In this document: one piece after another, positions 35,216 through 50,799 of the stretch
Numbering within the stretch: position 1 is the first letter of the stretch
How the letters are laid out: each line of letters starts with the position of its first letter
Assembly: GCF_000327285.1 (NCBI RefSeq)
Contig: NZ_HE998567.1
Span: forward strand, 121,136 to 185,135
Source: Holdemania massiliensis AP2
Lineage (GTDB): Bacteria; Bacillota_I; Bacilli_A; Erysipelotrichales; Erysipelotrichaceae
Direction: 5' to 3'
Length of the DNA stretch: 64,000 nt
The notes under the pieces: generated by a model
The model's input: the letters and a program-made list of their open reading frames with translations, nothing else
Told to the model about the DNA's origin: nothing
Databases searched by the model: none
Translations under genes and position numbers: made by a program

Positions 35216-35236
35216 TAGACTGGGGTAATGTTACTT

Positions 35237-36235
35237 ATGAGAAAAATGAAGAATAAAACGACGATGCTGCTGGCCGGCGGCTTGGCTATCGTTTTGATAC
35301 TCTTTGCCGCCGCAGCGATCTATTTCGGAATGATTGTAAAAGATCGCTCGGAATCGCAGCTGCCCAAAGAAACGGAAAAGCCGGTGCTGGCTGAACAGGG
35401 CGGACAGGAAAAGCCGCAGGAAACACAAGGTTTGGATGCCGTTGAAGTTGATCTGGTGAATGCGACCGTTTATCGCTTTGACGAACTGGACTTTCAGTTT
35501 GCGATCGCCAAAATCCGGGTTAAAGCCCAGGAACCAATCAATATTTCATTGGAGCATTTCACGACCGATGAAGGCATCAAGCTGAATGAAATTGACAGTT
35601 ACTTAGATCAGCTGGATAAAAACGGACTCTATATCGGCAAGCAGAATGTCTGGTTCGAATTGGTTTCCAAGGAAGACAGTTATGTTGCCAATATCTTTGT
35701 GCCGATCCGGGACAAGACGGCGCAGAGTGCTGCCGTCAACATTGATTTTGGCAGCAATGATCCGCTCAAATTAAATCTGAAAGAAGCCAGCGGGACGCGC
35801 GAGATGCTGGGTTATGTCGCGGAAGATGTGATCACCGACGGCAAGACTTATCAGATGCAGGTAAATGTTGCTTTTCAGATTGCATCTGAGGAAGTATATC
35901 GACGAGTGAATGGAGAAATTATGTATGGTGGTATTCCATCTACGGCAGCTGTTTATGTCTTCAAAGTAGAAGCTGTTAGTCTTTGGGGAGATAAACTGGA
36001 AATAGAATCTGCTCGTTATGTGCTCGATAACGGAAATGAATTTGATGCGTTAGAGGCAGACTATGAATCTGAAAAGTATGAAAACATTATAGGTAAATCC
36101 ATTCAGGAAAAAGATAACGGTGTTTTATTTATTGTTACTTATAACCCTGATAAAGAAGCGATATCCTATAGGGGTACATTGAAGCTTAAAATCAAAGGGC
36201 AAGAAAATTGGATTGATGTAAAGGTAAATTTGTAG
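35237..36235 (+). CDS. Membrane-anchored extracellular protein, function unknown
   Basis: About 332 residues. One N-terminal membrane helix (MLLAGGLAIVLILFAAAAIYF) followed by a charged Pro/Gln/Glu linker and an extracellular beta-rich domain with no motif I recognise. Starts at 35228, 35237 and 35246 are all possible; 35237 has the best spacing from GGGG at 35222. Around 35870-35930 the codon usage changes from the GC-richer style of the neighbourhood to an AT-rich style that continues into the next gene (hand counts of GC: 32 of 60 at 35761-35820, 18 of 60 at 36061-36120). The gene lies 10 bases before a large glucosaminidase gene and is probably co-transcribed with it. Confidence 0.7.
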   Translation: MRKMKNKTTMLLAGGLAIVLILFAAAAIYFGMIVKDRSESQLPKETEKPVLAEQGGQEKPQETQGLDAVEVDLVNATVYRFDELDFQFAIAKIRVKAQEPINISLEHFTTDEGIKLNEIDSYLDQLDKNGLYIGKQNVWFELVSKEDSYVANIFVPIRDKTAQSAAVNIDFGSNDPLKLNLKEASGTREMLGYVAEDVITDGKTYQMQVNVAFQIASEEVYRRVNGEIMYGGIPSTAAVYVFKVEAVSLWGDKLEIESARYVLDNGNEFDALEADYESEKYENIIGKSIQEKDNGVLFIVTYNPDKEAISYRGTLKLKIKGQENWIDVKVNL

Positions 36236-36245
36236 GAGGAAGAAT

Positions 36246-39200
36246 ATGAAAAAGGCGCTTAAATTTCTTTTGTCAGTTTTTGTAGCACTGACACTTATCC
36301 AGAATTATTCCTCCGATAAACCAGTTACGAAAGTAATTGCGGAAGGAACATATCCAATGGCATGTGGAAATTATGAGGTTTCATGGGTCAATGATAATGG
36401 TACATTTTCAGAGATCAGTTGTCATAATGATTTAGGTTCTGCATTGAATACGATGTTTAATTATGGTATTGATGCTGTTGTTCGTCATCCAGCAAGTAAA
36501 TCTCCAACGAAAATTATTGCTATGGTTTCAGGATTAGTTGCCAGCTATTCTTATCGCAGAGGATCAAATGTAACTCAAACAGGTGATGTAGTTAAAAGAG
36601 TAGCCGATTCAACAGTGACAATTACACAATATGAATCGTCAGGAGAAGAAACTTATGTGACAAGTCATCGAGAGATGATTTATCAACAAACCGCAAGCTA
36701 TAATCCAAGTAATGGAACTGGTAAAATAGGGGTGAATTTGACAGGTTTCGATGGATTTATTAATTTGGATCAAGTTGACTTAATTCCTATGAAGTTCGTT
36801 ACCCGTGGCTTAAGTATTCAGCTTGGAGGAAATAATGACGGAACTCCGTGGGAATCTCCGTTTTGGGTGAATCCAAAACAAAGCTATTATGAAGTTGTCC
36901 AAAATGGAAATTATAAAGATTTGGTTTATCATGTCTGGTCGTATTGGGCAAATAGTTCCAGAGTTCCGCAGGATTATTCTCAGACAATTGGTCCTGCAGA
37001 GGACTGGATGACAGTTGGATCAAAATATTATACTAACGATATGCATCATTTATATTCTGATCCCTATTTTCAGAATAAAGTAATGAATAATGGTCAACAT
37101 GCTGCATATTATAATTATTATGAAATGCTTCCATTACGCAGTCAAACCAATATCTCAGGTCAAACTTTGGATGCTTTTCTTGCTCAGCGATACAGTGCGG
37201 ACAGCTCTAAAATGTATGGTACGGGTAGTATTTTTACATCCAATCAGGAATCCTATGGAGTGAATGCTCTTTTAGTTTATTGTTTAGGGTTATTAGAATC
37301 CGCCTGGGGAACCAGTAAATATGCCAAAGAATATAATAATTTATTTGGCTGGAATGCTGTTGATAGTGATCCAGATAAAGCTGAATATTTTGATTCCATT
37401 GAAAAATGCATAAAGGAACAAATGGGGATAAATTTACGGGGTTATATGGATGTTCAGAATTGGCGCTTTTTTGGATATCATTTTGGTAATAAAGGGGCAG
37501 GATTTAACGTTAAGTATGCTTCTGATCCATACTGGGGTTTAAAAGTTGCAGCACTTGCTTATTCAATTGACAAGTTCGCTGCAGGATATAATGGCGATTT
37601 AATTGATTATGGAACATATGACCTTGGATTAATTAATCAAGTAAATGCTAGTGTTAAGCGTTACTCTGATGCAAATTCATCTACGCTATTTAACGCATCA
37701 TTTAGTCAAAGTAACTATATGAAAGACTATTCTATTATTATACAGTCGAATAATCAGGGGTGGATAGGCTTTCCGACACCAAATGGAGTTCGTGCTGATG
37801 GTTCTTTAGTCTTACATGGCAAAGGTTTTGAAAACTATGATTGGAATAACAGTGTCGGATATTTGCGTAATGATCAAATTACTCCTCTAGGGATTATTGA
37901 GGCAGAGGGTAATAAACCAGTAGGGGATTTTGTACAGAAAATCACCGAATTAAGTTTAAATGGAAGCAAACTTACGATAAAGGGCTATGCTTACCAGCCA
38001 GGATTGTATGTCCAAAATGTAGAACAGCTTACCCATCAGTTGGTGATTGAAGATGCTGACGGAAACAAACAAATGTATAATCTTACACAGGCAGAGTATA
38101 CGGATCAGAATTATAAGGCGGCAGGTTTTGCAGAAAGTGAGATACCACTTGATTTATTATTAACCGATGTTGGAACTTATAAATTATACATTCGAACGAT
38201 TCATGATACTTATGATGAAACTAAGCCTTTGTCTGATATAACTTTGCCGGAAACAGGCTCAGAATTATTGTTTGACTATGTTTTTGAAAATCAAAACGGC
38301 GGAGTCACGGTAACAAAGAAAGCTCATGTAATTCAAGAATATTTTAATACTTTAGTACAGAGATTTACGTTAAGTGAAGAAGGAAAGTTGTCAATTAAAG
38401 GAATAGCCTTTGTAGAAGGCAGACATCAAGGTTCACCTGAACAGATTTCACATCAGTTGTTAGTATCACGTGTTGACAGTGATGAGGTGATTAAGACATT
38501 TGATCTAACCAGTTATGTTGGAGATGAAGGCGATCCAAACTTGAATCTAGGCTATAATCACACCCAGCTTGGTTTTGATTACAGTTACGGTTATTACAAA
38601 GGCGATGTAGATATTTCTGATCTTCCTGACGGAGATTACAGTTTCACGATTAAAACGATCTCTGATGGTAAGGAATTTACTAGAAAACTATATGGCTTAA
38701 GCAATATGAAAGATAGTGGTGTACTTACGCTCAGTAATGGTAAATTTGGTGAGTTAAAAAGACAGTATGAATTCTCAAATCGTTTTGAATTAGCGATTCG
38801 TAATTATAAAATTGAACTTCCTGAAGGAAAACAGCCATTACCGCGAATACGTGAATCATATCAGTATCTGAGTAAAATTGCTTTCTCTGAAAATGATGAA
38901 AATTTGATTATCAAAGGCGCAGGATTCATTTGGAATGGTGATTTTTCAGCTGAACAACATCCAAAATATACTTTGTACTTGATTCACAAAGAAACAGGCA
39001 AAATTCATTCTTATCAAGTTGATGGACTTACGGCACTGACTGAAGGAGATTACAGCTGGGATATGACTGAAGAAAAAGGTGGAAATTATGATTATAGTCA
39101 TATTTGGTATGAGTTTGCAGTTCCTATGTCAGAGTTAGAAGATGGAAATTTTGAATTAAAGCTAATGGTTGAAACAGATTCATATGTTGATTTGCTTGAT

Positions 39201-39443
39201 TTGAAGTCAAGGGCTTCTATTAAACTGCCGTCAGTTGACAGTGAGAAAAAGTTTAAGGCAACTCGGAATACTAAAAATAAATACAAAATTGAATTTGAAT
39301 TAAAAGGCTGGTATGTTGAACCCATCTCGCTTGAATCAGAGAACCTAAATGATAATGAAGAAGCGGGAAATCCAACTGATTCTCCTGAGGAAACGAATGT
39401 TCCTAAACCTACTGTAGAAGCCAGTGAAACTCCAAACGGATGA
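36246..39443 (+). CDS. Large secreted glucosaminidase-domain protein with three repeat modules
   Basis: 1065 residues with a Sec signal peptide (KKALKFLLSVFVALTLIQ). The central segment near residues 340-450 matches the glucosaminidase fold of cell-wall hydrolases: LLVYCLGLLESAWGTSKYAK with a likely catalytic Glu, then EYNNLFGWNAVDSDP. Downstream are three related modules near 563, 703 and 873 (ITELSLNGSKLTIKGYAY; FTLSEEGKLSIKGIAF; IAFSENDENLIIKGAGF), each followed by a beta-strand-rich segment. The C-terminus is a Pro/Thr/Glu/Asn tail with no LPXTG anchor. The gene is AT-rich throughout. Probable role: cleaving peptidoglycan glycan chains outside the cell. AGGAGGAAG precedes ATG 36246. Confidence 0.82.
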   Translation: MKKALKFLLSVFVALTLIQNYSSDKPVTKVIAEGTYPMACGNYEVSWVNDNGTFSEISCHNDLGSALNTMFNYGIDAVVRHPASKSPTKIIAMVSGLVASYSYRRGSNVTQTGDVVKRVADSTVTITQYESSGEETYVTSHREMIYQQTASYNPSNGTGKIGVNLTGFDGFINLDQVDLIPMKFVTRGLSIQLGGNNDGTPWESPFWVNPKQSYYEVVQNGNYKDLVYHVWSYWANSSRVPQDYSQTIGPAEDWMTVGSKYYTNDMHHLYSDPYFQNKVMNNGQHAAYYNYYEMLPLRSQTNISGQTLDAFLAQRYSADSSKMYGTGSIFTSNQESYGVNALLVYCLGLLESAWGTSKYAKEYNNLFGWNAVDSDPDKAEYFDSIEKCIKEQMGINLRGYMDVQNWRFFGYHFGNKGAGFNVKYASDPYWGLKVAALAYSIDKFAAGYNGDLIDYGTYDLGLINQVNASVKRYSDANSSTLFNASFSQSNYMKDYSIIIQSNNQGWIGFPTPNGVRADGSLVLHGKGFENYDWNNSVGYLRNDQITPLGIIEAEGNKPVGDFVQKITELSLNGSKLTIKGYAYQPGLYVQNVEQLTHQLVIEDADGNKQMYNLTQAEYTDQNYKAAGFAESEIPLDLLLTDVGTYKLYIRTIHDTYDETKPLSDITLPETGSELLFDYVFENQNGGVTVTKKAHVIQEYFNTLVQRFTLSEEGKLSIKGIAFVEGRHQGSPEQISHQLLVSRVDSDEVIKTFDLTSYVGDEGDPNLNLGYNHTQLGFDYSYGYYKGDVDISDLPDGDYSFTIKTISDGKEFTRKLYGLSNMKDSGVLTLSNGKFGELKRQYEFSNRFELAIRNYKIELPEGKQPLPRIRESYQYLSKIAFSENDENLIIKGAGFIWNGDFSAEQHPKYTLYLIHKETGKIHSYQVDGLTALTEGDYSWDMTEEKGGNYDYSHIWYEFAVPMSELEDGNFELKLMVETDSYVDLLDLKSRASIKLPSVDSEKKFKATRNTKNKYKIEFELKGWYVEPISLESENLNDNEEAGNPTDSPEETNVPKPTVEASETPNG

Positions 39444-40038: not shown

Positions 40039-40710
40039 TTAAGATGGTCTTTTCTGTTGTGATTGATCCAGACAGCTGTTTGCATGCATTGTTTTTAACA
40101 ATACCGCAATCAACGCGTCGTCTAAAATATCCAAACCTAGTTTTTTCATCATGGTTTGAAGATAGTCAAGCCGAGCTTTAGTTTCTGCCGGCTTTCGGCT
40201 GAATATGACAGGATTTGTCCAGTAATTAAGCAGAAATGAGAAAATTTCTGCGCAAAGTTCAGGCTGATCAACCTGCAGTGAACCGTCTTCATTGCCTTTT
40301 TGGATTAATTCTGCAATAATCGGTGCATCGTGCAGCACACATCCCTGCATCCCTCCGACTATAAGATAAGGCTCAACGTGAGAAGCAACAGCTTGGTCCA
40401 GTGAATGAGTTTTGGTGTCAATAGCCAGCCTATAAAGTATTTTCTTTAGTTTTTCTCTGGCATTTTCACCTTGTGTATCACGAATTAATTCATGGAAGAG
40501 ATTGTTGACGTACAGAATACGTTTTTCCATCACGGCTCCAAAAATCTGTTCTTTGGATTTGAAATGATGATAAAGGCCGCCTTTGGAAAGCCCGGAAACA
40601 TCCAGAATATCCTGAATACTGGTTTGTTCATAGCCTTTTTCAACAAATAGTTGGGCGGCCGTTTCTACAATTTTCTCTAATGTTTGTTCCGGATGTTTAT
40701 TTCGTGCCAT
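40039..40710 (-). CDS. TetR-family transcriptional repressor
   Basis: 223 residues. The N-terminal TetR DNA-binding domain reads LEKIVETAAQLFVEKGYEQT, then SIQDILDVSGLSKGGLYHHF. The C-terminal ligand domain is not assignable. AGGAGG precedes the start. The palindrome at 40724-40740 in its own promoter region and the identical-pattern site at 39979-39995 indicate autoregulation and control of the neighbouring small membrane protein. The ligand is unknown. Confidence 0.9.
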   Translation of the reverse strand: MARNKHPEQTLEKIVETAAQLFVEKGYEQTSIQDILDVSGLSKGGLYHHFKSKEQIFGAVMEKRILYVNNLFHELIRDTQGENAREKLKKILYRLAIDTKTHSLDQAVASHVEPYLIVGGMQGCVLHDAPIIAELIQKGNEDGSLQVDQPELCAEIFSFLLNYWTNPVIFSRKPAETKARLDYLQTMMKKLGLDILDDALIAVLLKTMHANSCLDQSQQKRPS

Positions 40711-40723
40711 AACTCCTCCTTAT

Positions 40724-40740
40724 AAACCGACGGTTGGTCT
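40724..40740. promoter_or_regulatory. TetR-type operator at the tetR promoter
   Basis: AAACCGAC-G-GTTGGTCT, the same 17-bp palindrome as at 39979-39995 with two changes in the right arm, 13 bases upstream of the tetR start codon. Confidence 0.72.
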
Positions 40741-40813
40741 GTTTGTATATTATCTGAAATCAGACAGTGTGTCAAGCAGAAAAAAATGAATATAGGATTA
40801 AACTTCTTTGCTG

Positions 40814-40858
40814 AAAAAAACTGTCTTCCGAGCTTCTAAACCACTCGATGAAGACAGT
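40814..40858 (-). terminator. Intrinsic terminator after tex
   Basis: On the minus strand ACTGTCTTC (40858-40850) pairs with GAAGACAGT (40828-40820), with an inner GAG/CTC pairing, followed by seven T. Confidence 0.9.
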
Positions 40859-40867
40859 GTGATGAAA

Positions 40868-43018
40868 TTAACGATGAGGATCAATCATAGTCAGCTGAAC
40901 CCGGTGGCGTTCAGCATCAATCCCATAGACCCAGACTTTGAGAATATCGCCGATCGATACCACTTCACTCGGATGGGAAATCCGTCCCTGCACCATTTTA
41001 GAAATGTGAACTAAGCCGTCCTCATGCAAACCGATATCCACGAAGGCACCGAAATCGACTACGTTGCGGACAACACCTTCCAGCTCATCGCCTGAATGCA
41101 GATCTTCCAAGGTGAGCACATCGTGCCGCAGCATCGGACCATCAAACTGCTCACGGTAATCGCGCAGCGGCTGGGAAATTGCTTCGATCATATCCTGCAG
41201 CGTATAAACATCTGTGTTCAGCTGTTCAGCCGTTTCTTCAAGATTGAGCTGGTTAAGTTTTTCCCGGCACTCATCGCTGCCTAACTGCTGGATGCTTAAC
41301 AGTTGACATAAACGATGCGCGGCTTGATAGCTTTCCGGATGGATCGGTGTTTGATCAAGCGGCTCTTCGCCATCATGAATGCGTAAGAATCCAGCAGCCT
41401 GCTGAAAGGATTTAACGCCCAATTTTGGAACCTCCAACAGCTGACGGCGGTTATAGAAACGTCCGTGTTCATTGCGGTAGGCGACAATTGCATTGGCGGA
41501 AGCCTTTGTCAGACCAGAAACATGACACAGAAGTTCACTGGATGCAGTATTCACATCGACGCCGACGCGGTTAACACTTTTTAAAATGGCAAAATCCAGC
41601 CGTTCGTTCAGAGCTTTGGTCGGTAAATCATGCTGATACTGTCCGACGCCGATACTTTTCGGATCAATTTTAATCAATTCAGAAAGCGGATCCAGAATCC
41701 GCCGGGCAATTGAAACCGCGGAACGCTGTTCGACGTGCAGATCCGGAAATTCTTTTCGGGCTAATTCACTGGCGGAATAGACAGAGGCGCCGGCTTCGGA
41801 AACGAGCGTGTAATCGACACTCAGATTTTCTTTCTGGATAACATCAGCGATAAAGCTTTCCGTTTCCCGGCTGGCAGTGCCGTTGCCAATCGCGATGACT
41901 TCAATCGGATAATCCTTCAGGATGGATAACAGCTTAGCCTTGGCCTCGGCTTTTTTGTTCACCGGCGGATGTGGATAGAAAACATCGATTTTTAGCATTT
42001 TGCCGGTTGAATCAATAACCGCCAGCTTACAGCCGGTTCGAAATGCTGGATCGACACCCAGTATCATCTTGCCTTCCAGCGGCGGCTGAAGAAGCAGCCG
42101 CTCAACATTCATTGAGAAAATTTCTATGGACTGAGCCTGGGCTTTTTCACTGAGTTCACTTCGGACTTCCCGTTCAACGCTGGGAAACGCCAGTCGCTTT
42201 AAGCCATCCTCGGCAGCTTCTTCAATCAGCTTCTGGCAGACGGTCATGCGCTCATGCGTGACGCCGCGGATGGCATAGTTGATCAGAAAGGTCTGGTTGT
42301 AGTCCAGCGTCACCGTGATGACCTTTTCCTTTTCGGCTCGGTCGATAGCCATGACGCGGTGATTAGCTAGCGTACTGATTTTTTCTTTGTAGTCATAGTA
42401 CATTTTGTAAACTTGTTTTTCATCCTCATGTTTTTTCTTTTCCTTGCAGAGGATAAACCCATAGCGTTCAATCTGTTCTTTTATTTTCCAGCGCAGTTTT
42501 GCTTCATCGCTGATCCGTTCTGCCAGAATATCTTTAGCTCCCTGCAATGCTTCTTCGATTGTGGGAACCTGATCGTTAACATACTTTTCGGCCTGAACTG
42601 CTGGATCACCCGAACGTGGACAGGAAGCAATCCAATCCGCCAGCGGCGTGAGCCCTTTGGCCGCCGCATCGGTGGCGCGGGTTTTGCGCTTTTGTTGATA
42701 AGGACGGTAAATATCGTCTACCTGCGAAAGCTTGGTGCAGGCCAGAACCTGCTTCCGTAAATCTTCGGTCAGCTTGCCTTGGGTCTCAATGATCCGCAGC
42801 ACGTCTTCTTTGCGTTTTTCTAAATTACTTAGATACTGGACCTGCTGCTGAATAAATAAAATCTGTTCTTCGTCCAGTCCTTTTGTCATTTCTTTGCGGT
42901 AACGCGCGATAAAAGGAACTGTATTGCCTTCTTCTAATAACTTTAATGTATTTCGTACCTGGGATGGCTCAATGTTCAATGAAGCCGCCACTGGCTGAAT
43001 CAGTTGTTCAGTTTCCAT
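40868..43018 (-). CDS. tex: Tex-family RNA-binding protein (transcription accessory protein)
   Basis: 716-residue Tex/YhgF-type protein. N-terminal HTH-like region (NTVPFIARYRKEMTKGLDEE), YqgF/RuvX-like RNase-H fold (LGVDPAFRTGCKLAVIDSTG), helix-hairpin-helix pair near 520-560 (LCHVSGLTKASANAIVAYRN), and a C-terminal S1 domain (GVVRNVVDFGAFVDIGLHED). Binds nucleic acids and affects transcription. ATG 43024 lies one base after GAGGAGG, so ATG 43018 at 7-base spacing is preferred. Stand-alone gene with its own terminator. Confidence 0.95.
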   Translation of the reverse strand: METEQLIQPVAASLNIEPSQVRNTLKLLEEGNTVPFIARYRKEMTKGLDEEQILFIQQQVQYLSNLEKRKEDVLRIIETQGKLTEDLRKQVLACTKLSQVDDIYRPYQQKRKTRATDAAAKGLTPLADWIASCPRSGDPAVQAEKYVNDQVPTIEEALQGAKDILAERISDEAKLRWKIKEQIERYGFILCKEKKKHEDEKQVYKMYYDYKEKISTLANHRVMAIDRAEKEKVITVTLDYNQTFLINYAIRGVTHERMTVCQKLIEEAAEDGLKRLAFPSVEREVRSELSEKAQAQSIEIFSMNVERLLLQPPLEGKMILGVDPAFRTGCKLAVIDSTGKMLKIDVFYPHPPVNKKAEAKAKLLSILKDYPIEVIAIGNGTASRETESFIADVIQKENLSVDYTLVSEAGASVYSASELARKEFPDLHVEQRSAVSIARRILDPLSELIKIDPKSIGVGQYQHDLPTKALNERLDFAILKSVNRVGVDVNTASSELLCHVSGLTKASANAIVAYRNEHGRFYNRRQLLEVPKLGVKSFQQAAGFLRIHDGEEPLDQTPIHPESYQAAHRLCQLLSIQQLGSDECREKLNQLNLEETAEQLNTDVYTLQDMIEAISQPLRDYREQFDGPMLRHDVLTLEDLHSGDELEGVVRNVVDFGAFVDIGLHEDGLVHISKMVQGRISHPSEVVSIGDILKVWVYGIDAERHRVQLTMIDPHR

Positions 43019-43179
43019 ATTCATTCCTCCTCGTGATGATTTTTATCATAACACGAAAATCTTTTCATGACTTCAAAAATTTGTAAGAATTCAAGCCAGT
43101 AACTTCCAAAGAAAGTCTACAAAGGCCGTTCTTTAGGGTTTAAAATTATGTTATACTTGTTAGCGTACAGGAGGGCAAT

Positions 43180-45150
43180 ATGAATATAGATTTTACGAAT
43201 AAAAAGACGATCGCGCTGCTCAGTGCTGTCGGCGTATTAGCCATTGCAACAATTGCAGCCGTTGTCGTTTTGTTGACGCTGCCTGGCAAAGCGATTCAGG
43301 TGGAAGATTTCTCGGGGAAGACTGTTGAAGAAATCAAACAATGGGCAACTGAGAAAAAGCTGGCAGACAGTCAGCTGGTAATCGATTACGAATTCAGTGA
43401 CACTGTAGATAAGGATAAACTGATTTCGCAGAGTATTGCCTCAGAACAGAAGCTGAACAAAGACAGCGTTCTGACGGTTGTATTCTCCAAAGGTCCGGAT
43501 CCAGATGTCGAAGTTACGCTGCCGGATTTTAAGGACATGACGGAAGAAGAAATCGAAAAGTTTGTGGAAACGAACAAACTATTGGATGTAACTTATGAAT
43601 ATGCTGTTGACGAAAAGATCGAGAAAGGCAAATTCATTAAAGTGAATGTAACGGATACCGTTGTTAAGCGCAGCACAATGCTGATCTTTACGATATCCCA
43701 AGGCGAGGATGGAACAGGCGAACAGATTATTGTTCCGGACTTCAGTGATTATACAAAGGCGAAGATTACAAACTGGGCGAAAGCTAACAAGGTGACCATC
43801 AACTGGAAAGAAGAAGCTAGTGATAAGATCGCTAAAGACAAAGTGATTTCGCAGGATCCAAAAGCTGGAGAAACAATTAAAACCGGCGATAAGATTACAG
43901 TAACCTTATCCTTGGGAAAAACGGTGACGATGAAATCTCTGGCGAAGATGAGCAAGGATGAAGCAAAGAAATGGCTGAATGATAACGGTTTGGTCGGAGA
44001 ATTCAGTGAGGCATACAGCGGTTCAATTGAATATGGCTATGTTATCTCCAATACACCTGAAAAAGGGGATGTTAAACAGGGAAGCACAGTCAAAGTCAAA
44101 GTTTCGTTAGGAAAGATTAAATTGGAATCCTTCATTGGCAAGAAAAAGGAAGATGCCGAGAACTTCAAGAAGAAGGTAAACAATTCGGAAGCCAATCTGA
44201 CGTTTACTTACAGCGAAGTAGAAAGTACGGAAGCCGTCGGAACAATTGTTTCTCAGGGCTATGATTCTGGAACGTATTTATCTCCGGGAACGACAGTAAA
44301 CTTTCAGATTTCCAAAGGAAAATCAGTAACTGTAGAGAATAAAGCAGGTTCTAGTGAAGATGATTTTAAGAAGTATATTAGTAGTCTAGGTTTAAATTTA
44401 GGAACACGTTCTACCGTATACTCAGATAAAGCCGCAGGATTAATTGTTGAAAATGAGACTGGAAGCAAGGCTGCAGGCTCGTCTGTTTGGTATAAGGTTT
44501 CACTTGGATTATATAATCCAGCAGCCAGCGATTTTAATAACAAAACTGTAGCTGATGCTCGGAAAATTATTGAAAATGCTAATAACTCCGGTGCAGGATG
44601 GAGTTTTGTTGAACAAGGAAGCGATTATAACGAAACAGTTGCTTCTGGGATTACCTATGACTGTTCGGCTTCTAGTTCTGAGAAGAAAGTAAGCTGCTTT
44701 GTTTCGAAGGGGCCGGCACCGAAACCTGTGAATGTTGGCAGTTTTGAAGGTAAATCATTTAATGAATTCAATAGTTTTATTACAAATAATGGATTGAAAT
44801 TAGGCACGAAAACTGAAGAATACAGTGATACCTATGCAGCAGGAACGATCATTAGTAATGACACTGGTGAATTCACGAAAGGAACAGCTGTTAATTACAC
44901 GATTTCGTTAGGTTCGAGCAAAATCCAAATTGTTGACTTAACGACAAAGGTTGTTGCAAATGATCCTGAAGGAACTAAGAACAACATTATGAATTATTTA
45001 ACAGGTCAAGGCTTTCCAGCTGGAAATATTAATATAACAATCGAAACAAGTGATGTAACCAGAGGTGAACTTATTGACTATCCAGGTGCAGGTTTTATTG
45101 ATAAAAATGATAAAATAACGATTGTCATTTCCTCAGGACCTTCAGATTAA
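43180..45150 (+). CDS. Membrane-anchored protein with about nine PASTA repeats and no kinase domain
   Basis: 656 residues. A short cytoplasmic N-terminus (MNIDFTNKK), one membrane helix at about 12-33, then tandem PASTA-type modules of about 65-75 residues to the end. Each begins with a hydrophobic aromatic segment (VEDFSGKTVEEIKQW, LPDFKDMTEEEIEKF, VPDFSDYTKAKITNW, SDFNNKTVADARKII, VGSFEGKSFNEFNSF) and ends in SxG-type strands (VVFSKGPD, TLSLGKT, VSLGKI, ISKGKS, TISLGSS, VISSGPSD). I count nine. PASTA domains in Ser/Thr kinases and PBPs bind peptidoglycan fragments or beta-lactams; here neither catalytic domain is present. GC drops after about 44340 (16 of 60 at 44341-44400). TATACT at 43152-43157 is a likely -10. 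Confidence 0.82.
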   Translation: MNIDFTNKKTIALLSAVGVLAIATIAAVVVLLTLPGKAIQVEDFSGKTVEEIKQWATEKKLADSQLVIDYEFSDTVDKDKLISQSIASEQKLNKDSVLTVVFSKGPDPDVEVTLPDFKDMTEEEIEKFVETNKLLDVTYEYAVDEKIEKGKFIKVNVTDTVVKRSTMLIFTISQGEDGTGEQIIVPDFSDYTKAKITNWAKANKVTINWKEEASDKIAKDKVISQDPKAGETIKTGDKITVTLSLGKTVTMKSLAKMSKDEAKKWLNDNGLVGEFSEAYSGSIEYGYVISNTPEKGDVKQGSTVKVKVSLGKIKLESFIGKKKEDAENFKKKVNNSEANLTFTYSEVESTEAVGTIVSQGYDSGTYLSPGTTVNFQISKGKSVTVENKAGSSEDDFKKYISSLGLNLGTRSTVYSDKAAGLIVENETGSKAAGSSVWYKVSLGLYNPAASDFNNKTVADARKIIENANNSGAGWSFVEQGSDYNETVASGITYDCSASSSEKKVSCFVSKGPAPKPVNVGSFEGKSFNEFNSFITNNGLKLGTKTEEYSDTYAAGTIISNDTGEFTKGTAVNYTISLGSSKIQIVDLTTKVVANDPEGTKNNIMNYLTGQGFPAGNINITIETSDVTRGELIDYPGAGFIDKNDKITIVISSGPSD

Positions 45151-45269
45151 GTTCTGAGAATTGAAAAATTTGCTTTATGAAAGAAAGTAAATTTACTTCG
45201 AAATATCAAAGACTGAGGAATTATTATAATGGCTTTCGAAATCATTCTGCCAGCTAAGAAAAGAAATGT
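45151..45269 (+). other. 3' untranslated region of the PASTA gene
   Basis: AT-rich, no gene seen. Ends in a terminator. Confidence 0.3.
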
Positions 45270-45304
45270 GGATGAAGCGTGTTAAGCGCTCATCCTTTTT
45301 TTTG
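45270..45304 (+). terminator. Intrinsic terminator after the PASTA gene
   Basis: GGATGAAGCG (45270-45279) pairs with CGCTCATCC (45287-45295) with one bulged A, followed by about nine T. Confidence 0.82.
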
Positions 45305-45378
45305 GTTATAGTGTTAAATAAGAGCTAACCACTAATGTTCCGATAGAATTAATGTTATAATAATAACGGAAAGACAAC

Positions 45379-45418
45379 TATTTACAGCTCCAGGAAAAAG
45401 TCTGTGCAGCTGTAAATA
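45379..45418 (+). promoter_or_regulatory. Long hairpin in the leader of the GGDEF gene
   Basis: TATTTACAGCT (45379-45389) and AGCTGTAAATA (45408-45418) form a perfect 11-bp stem; CAG/CTG extends it inward. It lies about 125 bases before the GGDEF gene. It does not match the c-di-GMP riboswitch cores I know. Confidence 0.45.
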
Positions 45419-45542
45419 AAGAATAAGTCAGGGTCAATCGCATAAACCGTGGATTTCCTTTGAATAAATTGGTTGAGTGCAAGGATAGCTGGAAACAAAT
45501 AAGTTGGTATTTATTCCAGTATGTCGGAAAGGAAGTAAAGCT

Positions 45543-47839: not shown

Positions 47840-48220
47840 ATGGAATTGATGTCAGATTCCGAAAAGGAAATTATGAAGTTGATTTGGGATCATGGCGGGG
47901 TGATCACGATCAGCGAATTGCTGGATCAGATTGATCAAACTGGAAAGGACTGGAAGCGGACAACCGTCAGAACCTTTATTTCCAGATTGATTGACAAGGG
48001 GATGCTGATCAGTCAGAAAGAAGGCCGGGGAGCCTTATACATCGCCCAGGTCAGTGAAGCAGAATATCTGAAAGTCCAGTCAGTTCAGTTTGTGAATCAG
48101 GTGTTCGGAGGTAATGTCAGCACTTTGCTGACCTCTTTGTTTGGGCAGCAGTGTCTGGATAAAAAAGAAGTGGAAGAATTGGAGAAATTCTGGGAAGAAG
48201 GGAAGGGAAAATTGAAATGA
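47840..48220 (+). CDS. blaI: BlaI/MecI/CopY-family transcriptional repressor
   Basis: 126 residues. N-terminal winged helix (MELMSDSEKEIMKLIWDHGG; KRTTVRTFISRLIDKGML) and a C-terminal dimerisation tail typical of the family. Overlaps the M56 gene by ATGA, as blaI-blaR1 type pairs do. Two matching operators are in its own promoter, so it is self-repressed. In the classical system the M56 partner triggers its cleavage on a signal. The symbol marks the family; the regulated system here need not be beta-lactam resistance, since no beta-lactamase is in the window. Confidence 0.92.
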   Translation: MELMSDSEKEIMKLIWDHGGVITISELLDQIDQTGKDWKRTTVRTFISRLIDKGMLISQKEGRGALYIAQVSEAEYLKVQSVQFVNQVFGGNVSTLLTSLFGQQCLDKKEVEELEKFWEEGKGKLK

Positions 48221-50799
48221 ATACGGTACTGATCGGTTTTCTTTCTGTTTCCATCTCTGCAGTATGCATGGCGGGTATTGTCTTGATCCTGGAAAAACTA
48301 TTAAAAAATCATCTCAGTTTCCGCTTTCGGTATGGATTATGGCTGGTTATCATTCTGCGACTGTTAATTCCAGTTTCTCCCGTTTCCGGTCTGATGGGAA
48401 CGCTGTTTACCGCTGAAACCTGGAAAGGGCAGCCGCAGCCGTTCGTCGCTCAGCCGGAAACTCATCGGGAGGAATGGCGTGAGCCTGCTGAAACTATATT
48501 CCCGCAGATTGACAATGAGCCGCTGCCAGACTTGTCATCAACGTCAGAATCCCTTTCAACCCAAACTTCCTGGCATTTTCAGACGCCTGCCTGGCTTGAT
48601 GATTTAGTTCAGGCTGCCTGGGTGTTGTGGCTCAGCATCGCGGTTGTCTTAATGGTGCGGCGAATGACGAGTTATCAGGGATTTCTGCGGTTTATTCGCG
48701 CCGGCAGCTTTCCAGCTTCTAATCCCAAAACTTTGCAGATTCTTGACGAAGTACGTCAGGAAAAAGGTATCCGCCGGACTATTCCCATCTCGATCAATAA
48801 ATTAGCTGTTTCGCCAATGCTGCCGGGGGTTGTCCATCCGCAGATTATTCTGACGAGCGAAGAATGCGGTGAAGAGGAAATGCGGATGATTCTGCGGCAT
48901 GAACTGACGCATTATCAGCGTGGGGATATCTTTACTAAATGGCTTGTTCAGCTGGCTGTTTGCCTGCATTGGTTTAACCCGCTTGTCCGTCTGATCGGCA
49001 AGCATATGGAAAGCCTGTGTGAACTGGCCTGTGATGAACAAGTCCTAAAGCCGCTTTCAGCACAGGAGAAACGGTGTTATGGAGATACCTTGATCCATTC
49101 CCTGAAGGACAAGGGAACCTATGGGGATCTGATCGTTTCAATTACGTTAAATGAGAATCTGAGCTTATTGAAAGAAAGGTTAAGTGCGATTATGAATGAG
49201 AAAAAATCGACGGCGTCCCGAACGCTTATTTCGATGGCAGCCGGCGCTGTGCTGTTTGCCAGCGGAATTTTCTGCGGATCAGCGATCAGCTGGAAGGCGC
49301 CTGCCCCCTCTGCTGCCCCGGCGGCAACAACGACAACATCAACCAGCAATCAAAGAACTTTCTATTTTTCCGGAAGCGTTTATACACAAGGCTATATCGT
49401 CACCTTGAACTGGGCCGGGGCAGAGAATACCGAGAAAAATCGGGCTTATCAAGATTCCTTAGTCAGCGTGGCCTTTGATGAAAGCATGAAATCGGTGATG
49501 GAAAATGAGGAACAGATGGAAGCTGTGCGGCAGGCTGTGACTGAGCAGCATGCCCGTTTGGTTCGCAGCAACAGTACCTTAGCTTCCAATACACCGCTGC
49601 TGACATCCATCGAAGGGCCTTACAGTGAATCGGCAGAGGAGCTGGCCGCGCGTTTTCATAAAGAAAATAAAATGGCGCAGTTCCGCGCAGTTGCCGCAAA
49701 ACTGGAGGCTGAATCGGCTGTGAAGATGGCGCGGACTTTCTACGCTTCTAAAGAAATGGACTACTTTGCCGTTCTGGCCGATTCCTTATCGGAAGAAGAA
49801 GTCATTGAATTTTGCACACAGGCCTATCAGAATCAAATTGAGGATGCTTTTGATCTGCTGATACAAAAACTGCCGCAGGATCAGATTCAGACCCTGGCTC
49901 AGCAAGCCTACGAGGATGAACGGATTCAATATTATGAAATGGCGATCTATTCGCTGCCTGTTCAGCAGCGGGCGGATTGGGCTGAGAAAGCCTATACCGA
50001 TGCCCGTCTTGATTATTTTGAAGAAGCTGCTTATGATCTGACAACGGCGCAGCTGGGGGAATGGGCGGATCGAATTTATGCGGACAGTCAGCTGGAATTC
50101 TTTGAGATCATCGTGCGCCGGCTGACTTCACAGCAGCTGCAGAGCTTGGCTGAAAGAGCCTATGCGGATAATCGTCCCGACTATTTCAGAGAATTATACT
50201 ATGATTTATCCAAGGAGAGCATCGAAAAATATGCACAGCGCGTCATTGACGATCAGCGGATTCAGGACTATCTGTTTATCTTTGATGAAGATCTGCCTGA
50301 GGCATTAATGAATACCCTGGCTATTCAGGCTTATGAAGAAAAACAAAATGGTTTATTTGATCGCATCAATTGGAAAATTTCAACCGAAACAGCCAATGAA
50401 CTGCTTAAACGAGCATATCAAGATCATCGCATGGAGATTCTGTACCGCATGTCCTCTTATGCCAGTGCTGAGAATTTAAAGACGCTCATAGAACAAGCCT
50501 TTAATGATAACCGAACAGATGTTTTCATGAACCTCTGCGATGATCTGTCAAGTCAGCAGAAGGCCGAGTATGCTGTGCGGGCGTATGATAATCAAAACAT
50601 AGAAATCATGTCCAATCTCGTTTACGATTTGTCCCATGATCAGGTTCTGCCGCTGGCTCAAAAAGCCTATGACGATCAGCGAATTCAGTATTTTGAAATG
50701 ATCGTCTATGAATTAAACAGCGGTGATATTGCGAAATTCAAAGCTCAGGCCAAGCAAGACGGCCGGGATGAATTCTATTATCTGCTTGAAAATTACTAA
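48217..50799 (+). CDS. M56 (BlaR1-family) membrane metalloprotease sensor with tandem 28-residue-repeat ectodomain
   Basis: 860 residues. Membrane helices at about 5-27, 38-55 and 128-148; zinc protease domain with HELTHYQRGDIF at about 228; a fourth helix at about 335-352. A Pro/Ala/Thr-rich linker follows, then an extracellular region. From about 474 to the end run roughly fourteen repeats of 28 residues with the pattern LAQxAYxDxRIxYFExxxYDL and a variable 6-7 residue tail (for example LAQQAYEDERIQYYEMAIYS near 570, LAQKAYDDQRIQYFEMIVYE near 813). They look like paired helices forming a solenoid. No penicillin-binding SxxK/SxN/KTG motifs are present, unlike BlaR1/MecR1. Coupled by ATGA to blaI, so it should relay an unknown extracellular signal to that repressor. 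Confidence 0.85.
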   Translation: MNTVLIGFLSVSISAVCMAGIVLILEKLLKNHLSFRFRYGLWLVIILRLLIPVSPVSGLMGTLFTAETWKGQPQPFVAQPETHREEWREPAETIFPQIDNEPLPDLSSTSESLSTQTSWHFQTPAWLDDLVQAAWVLWLSIAVVLMVRRMTSYQGFLRFIRAGSFPASNPKTLQILDEVRQEKGIRRTIPISINKLAVSPMLPGVVHPQIILTSEECGEEEMRMILRHELTHYQRGDIFTKWLVQLAVCLHWFNPLVRLIGKHMESLCELACDEQVLKPLSAQEKRCYGDTLIHSLKDKGTYGDLIVSITLNENLSLLKERLSAIMNEKKSTASRTLISMAAGAVLFASGIFCGSAISWKAPAPSAAPAATTTTSTSNQRTFYFSGSVYTQGYIVTLNWAGAENTEKNRAYQDSLVSVAFDESMKSVMENEEQMEAVRQAVTEQHARLVRSNSTLASNTPLLTSIEGPYSESAEELAARFHKENKMAQFRAVAAKLEAESAVKMARTFYASKEMDYFAVLADSLSEEEVIEFCTQAYQNQIEDAFDLLIQKLPQDQIQTLAQQAYEDERIQYYEMAIYSLPVQQRADWAEKAYTDARLDYFEEAAYDLTTAQLGEWADRIYADSQLEFFEIIVRRLTSQQLQSLAERAYADNRPDYFRELYYDLSKESIEKYAQRVIDDQRIQDYLFIFDEDLPEALMNTLAIQAYEEKQNGLFDRINWKISTETANELLKRAYQDHRMEILYRMSSYASAENLKTLIEQAFNDNRTDVFMNLCDDLSSQQKAEYAVRAYDNQNIEIMSNLVYDLSHDQVLPLAQKAYDDQRIQYFEMIVYELNSGDIAKFKAQAKQDGRDEFYYLLENY
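49640..50799 (+). repeat. Tandem coding repeats (84-base units) in the M56 sensor gene
   Basis: About fourteen in-frame units, each 84 bases coding 28 residues, with the AY-[DE]-x-R-[IL]-xYF core conserved best in units 4, 5, 7 and 13. The DNA units are diverged, so this is old protein-level duplication and not a recent satellite. Confidence 0.8.

Follow-up and report, generated by a model that had tools for sequence, protein, structure and literature searches.

A membrane-anchored chain of PASTA repeats that carries no kinase is encoded together with a secreted LytB-type glucosaminidase and a membrane-anchored extracellular protein (P3), and the three genes form a conserved trio across Erysipelotrichaceae. 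All three were found in a 64,000-nucleotide stretch of the Holdemania massiliensis AP2 genome (hereafter the window). The distal PASTA repeats co-varied with the C-terminal module of the glucosaminidase. We consider it probable that the PASTA protein acts as an anchor or ruler by which its own LytB-type hydrolase is positioned or tuned, with the distal repeats recognising the C-terminal module of the enzyme. The glucosaminidase and P3, tied to the PASTA gene by gene order and co-variation, had been missed by the first-pass annotation of this DNA. The features are listed in Table 1.

Table 1. Features of the window and related loci; positions without a prefix are those of the window
Feature	Position	Strand	Basis or remark
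P3 (P0003), membrane-anchored extracellular protein	35228..36235	+	10 bp upstream of the glucosaminidase gene
Secreted LytB-type glucosaminidase (P0002), 1065 aa	36246..39443	+	PF01832, PDB matches, neighbourhood
Glucosaminidase catalytic domain (PF01832), aa 329-441	37230..37568	+	55.3 bits, 1.4e-14
Glucosaminidase C-terminal module, aa 575-1065	37968..39440	+	Co-varies with distal PASTA repeats
TetR-type regulator and Tex (S1 RNA-binding) gene	40039..43024	-	Between glucosaminidase and PASTA genes in Holdemania
Kinase-free nine-PASTA membrane protein (P0001), 656 aa	43180..45150	+	ORF call, Pfam
Signal-anchor or membrane helix, aa 9-42	43204..43305	+	Hydropathy; sole hydrophobic stretch
Membrane-proximal PASTA repeats R1-R6, aa 39-444	43294..44511	+	83-100% identity to H. 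filiformis
Distal PASTA repeats R7-R9, aa 445-656	44512..45147	+	R8-R9 diverged from H. filiformis
PASTA kinase	L011:5468-7168 (C1:855-857 kb)		Pkinase 193 bits, 2 PASTA stretches
PASTA penicillin-binding protein	L010:8286-10469
Second penicillin-binding protein, marginal PASTA	L010:4943-6859		22.5 bits in genome search, none in Pfam domain scan
LytR-CpsA-Psr protein, one borderline PASTA	L012:5617-7944		Pfam 21.6 against 23.2; genome search 25.9 bits
Second kinase-free PASTA protein (class B), 547 aa	L009:4515-6158		4 certain repeats
PF12733 surface proteins between glucosaminidase and Tex	L152:4037-5983, L151:7249-9228, L153:4391-6286

The PASTA gene starts with ATG, and a plausible ribosome-binding site (AGGAGGG) was read directly upstream of it; in a scan for promoters and terminators, the number of sites was not above that in shuffled sequences. 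About 8 residues precede the membrane helix. Pfam assigned PF03793 (PASTA) to 7 stretches of the protein (193.8 bits, E 3.7e-58, gathering score 23.2) and no other family above the cut-off, neither a kinase nor a transpeptidase domain, in agreement with the first-pass description of a PASTA chain lacking both. When the repeats were scored singly against the Pfam PASTA model (cut-off 23.2 bits), R1 (39.6), R2 (24.4), R3 (55.2), R4 (49.1), R5 (31.0) and R8 (30.8) passed, and R6 (19.8), R7 (14.5) and R9 (13.2 bits) fell below. R1-R9 were all in register in the alignment, the profile of which was made from the same repeats and hence provides no independent test. The annotated count of roughly nine divergent repeats, with one helix and no further domain, was correct, because six repeats pass alone and the three weaker ones are in register; we regard six as certain and R6, R7 and R9 as likely. 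The PASTA fold consists of one helix packed against three strands. AlphaFold, supplied with a 3-row alignment, modelled the protein with a pLDDT of only 34.2, probably because the alignment was too shallow.

Database matches to the protein pointed to PASTA kinases. The single NCBIfam model reported was that of a PASTA kinase (254 bits, below its cut-off of 450), with the best stretch in the C-terminal (TM and PASTA) part of the profile, and phmmer matched the kinase PASTA regions 3m9g, 3py9 and 2kui in the PDB (best E 6.4e-9). The sub-cut-off NCBIfam match could suggest a kinase PASTA tail severed by an assembly error or a frameshift. However, this artefact is already refuted, because the orthologues in other Holdemania genomes and in many genera share the same architecture. 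The gene also has its own start and signal-anchor, an intact, divergently oriented Tex gene lies upstream of it, and the locus sits inside a 1.69 Mb contig and not at its end, leaving a severed tail with a negligible probability.

The genome contains an intact PASTA kinase elsewhere, as the first-pass annotation had supposed, and further PASTA proteins (Table 1); the gene at 43180-45150 is therefore neither the sole PASTA gene of the genome nor a fragment detached from its kinase gene. The protein shares a TM helix and PASTA repeats with the PknB, PrkC and Stk1 kinases, which gave its top NCBIfam and PDB matches, but it has neither the kinase domain nor the juxtamembrane region, and the kinase of this genome is a separate gene. 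Likewise, it resembles PASTA penicillin-binding proteins in exposing PASTA repeats outside the membrane but lacks their transpeptidase domain, and the PASTA penicillin-binding protein of the genome is also encoded separately. Many genomes probably have annotated kinase-free PASTA proteins. The class B protein of H. massiliensis also combines a TM helix with PASTA repeats and no enzyme domain; it differs in having four certain repeats, ABC-transporter neighbours and, in this genome, about 44 residues in its N-terminal tail. In the class B locus (L009:448-6158, G000:C2 about 292-298 kb) the PASTA gene adjoins FtsX/MacB-type ABC permeases and an ATPase, and such a permease was a neighbour in 8 of the 11 fetched loci; by analogy, the locus is possibly a PASTA-coupled ABC system resembling FtsEX. 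As a separate observation, the LytR-CpsA-Psr protein carries, upstream of its borderline PASTA, a stretch matching a phosphonate-binding family, which is an unusual fusion.

Kinase PASTA regions bind muropeptides and lipid II, according to PMC8262956 and PMC12505970, and a PASTA kinase is present in the same genome. The first-pass annotation proposed a cell-wall anchor, or a muropeptide sensor or decoy competing with or assisting the kinase. However, since the cytoplasmic tail is only about 8 residues long, the protein would be incapable of relaying a signal by itself, and its gene is not linked to the kinase gene but strongly to those of the LytB-type glucosaminidase and P3. A sensor or decoy of muropeptides or lipid II acting on the kinase is thus quite improbable. 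The anchor part of the proposal fits best, and no evidence was found for a tie between the PASTA protein and the kinase.

The catalytic part of the glucosaminidase was closest to 4q2w, 7pj3 and related PDB entries described as 'putative endo-beta-N-acetylglucosaminidase' (E 2e-20), which we take to be structures of pneumococcal LytB. The conserved Glu-containing motif, in the region around 'LLESAWGTSKYAKEYNNLFG', aligned with these structures, as expected of a GH73 catalytic domain, and the Glu is presumably the catalytic residue. Pneumococcal LytB carries choline-binding repeats. None were found in P0002, for which Pfam reported only PF01832; its C-terminal half gave nothing over the Pfam cut-off, either within the whole protein or with aa 601-1065 alone. 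P3 had no Pfam, NCBIfam or significant PDB match, and its AlphaFold model had a pLDDT of 40.7. A profile (A3) built from P3 matched 123 of 272 genomes of the family, 49 of 148 sampled within the order and 17 of 296 sampled within the class, and in all three samples every match listed fell in Erysipelotrichaceae.

The linkage of the three genes was examined in several sets of loci. In the first nine class-A loci (the window, L013, L014 and L045-L050), the only constant neighbours of the PASTA gene were the glucosaminidase (9/9) and P3 (8/9). The stretch of the ninth locus, L048, begins near a contig end within the glucosaminidase gene, and in the same genome P3 is found on a different contig (L098), together with the other portion of such a gene. 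Among 115 family genomes, 45 had a P0001 match, and a P0002-type glucosaminidase lay less than 12 kb away in 29 of the 45. These correspond to 29 of 78 P0001 matches; the remainder look mostly like class B paralogues, and some are class-A genes that lie elsewhere or on short contigs. The PASTA gene was located 3' of the glucosaminidase in 28 of the 29 linked genomes. In the exception, G102, the glucosaminidase tabulated with it was a weak paralogue (77 bits), and next to the PASTA gene lie the final 70 aa of a different glucosaminidase gene, truncated where the contig stops.

A further 58 P3 loci contained a glucosaminidase in every case and a PASTA gene in 42. Nine of the 16 PASTA-less loci (G012, G142, G147, G152, G194, G222, G226, G254 and G258) are stretches that end near the glucosaminidase, and the other seven are real absences. 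The slot is occupied by a cadherin-like (PF12733) protein in G010, G080 and G095, by the start of another secreted-looking protein in G011, by an ATP-grasp gene in G212 and by other genes in G140 and G168. The cadherin-like and other surface proteins indicate that the slot behind the glucosaminidase can hold another surface protein.

Both proteins were complete in 67 genomes, in which the two genes were co-directional in 43, convergent in 21 and unlinked in 3. The gap or overlap was within 30 bp in 40 of the 43 co-directional genomes (a 63-bp overlap in two cases), and the remaining three were Holdemania, with 3.7-5.5 kb and other genes between glucosaminidase and PASTA. In the window, P3 and the glucosaminidase are only 10 bp apart, and the PASTA gene is a unit of its own located beyond Tex. 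In G001 the PASTA gene is convergent with the glucosaminidase at a distance of 2.4 kb. Tex was found beside the PASTA gene in other genera too. In Holdemania sp. Marseille-P2844 (L014:5970-9845), Tex is split by a 402-aa opposite-strand ORF, probably a mobile element. A functional tie to the GGDEF, GNAT and BlaI/BlaR1 genes of the window was rejected, as outside the nearest Holdemania they no longer neighbour the PASTA gene. The BlaR1-type M56 peptidase (48217-50799, 860 aa) is located 3' of a BlaI/MecI-like gene at 47840 (named by eye), and its long C-terminal part resembles, also by eye, about a dozen helical repeats of ~30 residues.

We compared the sequence distances of the two proteins by partial Mantel tests with genome-level permutation, which can be anti-conservative. 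The glucosaminidase was divided into the parts before (GN) and after (GC) the column of P0002 residue 575, and the PASTA protein into its first four repeats (PN) and its last 150 or 200 aa (PC); the test was GC~PC given GN and PN. The first set comprised 27 genomes (the 29 minus two near-duplicates) and gave r 0.259, with 2/5000 permutations and 0/3000 in a repeat run. The pairs GN~PC (2737/3000) and GC~PN (2032/3000) were null. The signal remained without Holdemania (11/3000) and with one genome per genus (24/3000 and 10/3000). It was observed in the 11 convergent genomes (r 0.33-0.65, 0-26/3000 by PC length) and was not significant in the 16 non-convergent ones (395-533/3000). A signal carried by convergent genomes would fit simple linkage, and the sample was therefore enlarged.

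In 64 genomes, GC~PC (PC being the last 200 aa) gave r 0.300 (0/2000). The correlation was strongest in the convergent genomes (r 0.547), but it was also present in the 41 co-directional ones (r 0.339, 0/2000), though GC adjoins PN there. Linkage is no explanation of these results, because the co-directional order would join GC to PN, and GC~PN was null both in the 64 genomes (1852/2000) and in the co-directional ones (1531/2000). Within-genus pairs gave r 0.434 (0/2000), and two genera were positive by themselves (g3, 1/2000; g44, 4/2000). The test was not significant in genus g57 with its 6 genomes (1090/2000), nor for all pairs with within-genus permutation (258/2000). GN~PC was raised too in the co-directional (6/2000) and convergent (28/2000) genomes, which counts against the reading favoured here. 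P3 had no comparable co-variation link to GC or PC, and the lengths of the GC module and the PASTA protein were uncorrelated (Spearman 0.12, p 0.32). Co-variation beyond phylogeny thus appears to link the distal PASTA repeats to the C-terminal module of the glucosaminidase in most cuts of the data, with some cuts negative and with a test that may overstate the effect; the remaining pairings of modules mostly show none. Gene order and co-variation together associate the PASTA protein genetically with the LytB-type hydrolase.

The same two ends stood out in the comparison within Holdemania. Tex is 95% identical to the window in H. filiformis and 75% in G001, which places G001 as an outgroup. R1-R5 of the window were 93-100% identical to H. 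filiformis, and 87-100% to H. filiformis or Marseille-P2844, whereas R8-R9 were only 19-23% identical to these two. Similarly, the glucosaminidase was 48-76% identical to theirs over aa 1-600 and 21-30% over aa 601-1065. The more distant G001, in contrast, matched the window at 67/56% in R8/R9 and at 49-69% in glucosaminidase aa 601-1000, with 31% in the last 65 aa. In nucleotide sequence, the window and H. filiformis shared a backbone of roughly 74-84% identity with two gaps, one without any match at 44606-45526 and one in the glucosaminidase gene, of which only 254 bp matched. Between them, 40851-44606 (Tex and R1-R6) was 83% identical. These sequence comparisons indicate that, within an otherwise syntenic backbone, the PASTA end and the glucosaminidase end were each replaced as an island of its own. 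The end types also matched across genera: the ends of the window and G001 were nearest to those of G055 and G097, and the ends of H. filiformis to those of G084, G111 and G020.

The two proteins might also be functional neighbours without contact, which act in the same wall process and whose exposed ends recombined or diversified together, e.g., under phage or immune pressure. Both C-terminal ends are indeed the fast-evolving parts, and co-variation peaks in the convergent genomes, in which the 3' ends are adjacent, so that both could be exchanged in a single recombination tract. However, the co-directional genomes co-vary as well, and the link between glucosaminidase end and PASTA start that such a tract predicts was null. 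In Holdemania a single tract could not have replaced both ends, because the conserved Tex and R1-R6 separate the islands. We therefore regard association without contact as unlikely. A passive membrane-to-wall anchor unrelated to the hydrolase would satisfy the architecture alone, but the conserved trio and the co-variation argue against it and make it very unlikely.

In the favoured reading, a PASTA anchor or ruler for the hydrolase, the N-terminal helix would hold the protein in the membrane and the nine repeats would extend outward through the wall material. The repeats nearest the membrane may be a conserved spacer, or a stalk that binds the wall, and the glucosaminidase secreted from the neighbouring gene would be recognised through its C-terminal module, by direct contact with the variable distal repeats. 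This recognition would place or tune the enzyme at the site of wall cutting, for cell separation or wall thinning, with P3 as a putative third, membrane-anchored member of the unit. Against this reading, the PASTA gene of Holdemania is not in an operon with the glucosaminidase, seven loci have P3 and glucosaminidase without it, and some of the co-variation subsets above were negative. A bolder version, in which the distal repeats and the C-terminal module are matched, exchangeable specificity modules swapped jointly between lineages, on a scaffold that purely recruits the enzyme with the kinase uninvolved, is possible but tentative.

The nearest known system is StkP-LytB of Streptococcus pneumoniae. 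There, LytB is directed to the septum by the StkP PASTA repeats (PMC8262956), the terminal PASTA contains the LytB-binding region (PMC6428115), and the three inner repeats can be exchanged for one another and determine how thick the septal wall is (PMC6593474); PASTAs are also said to augment LytB hydrolysis (PMC12505970). Both systems combine PASTA repeats on a membrane helix with a LytB-type glucosaminidase, here by genetic association, and the logic is the same, namely conserved inner repeats and variable outer repeats that co-vary with the enzyme. Unlike StkP-LytB, however, the present system has no kinase, nine repeats as opposed to four, and adjacent genes, and the hydrolase differs from LytB in its large C-terminal module without a Pfam match. 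For S. aureus PknB, a 2025 paper argues for an undiscovered kinase-independent function of the PASTA region and suggests control of extracellular proteins, as with LytB (PMC12505970). A PASTA region working without kinase activity is common to both cases, but that of S. aureus PknB still belongs to a kinase. Searches of open-licence PMC papers returned work on StkP-LytB, but none on a kinase-free multi-PASTA protein tied to a LytB-type hydrolase, in Erysipelotrichaceae or otherwise.

What PASTA repeats do beyond kinase switching is a question for which a PASTA chain split from its kinase provides a natural experiment. The reading proposed here specifies the modules expected to bind each other, and close relatives (H. 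filiformis against the genome of the window) supply both cognate and non-cognate pairs. In Erysipelotrichaceae, the PASTA chain has been detached from the kinase and is genetically coupled to a LytB-type hydrolase.
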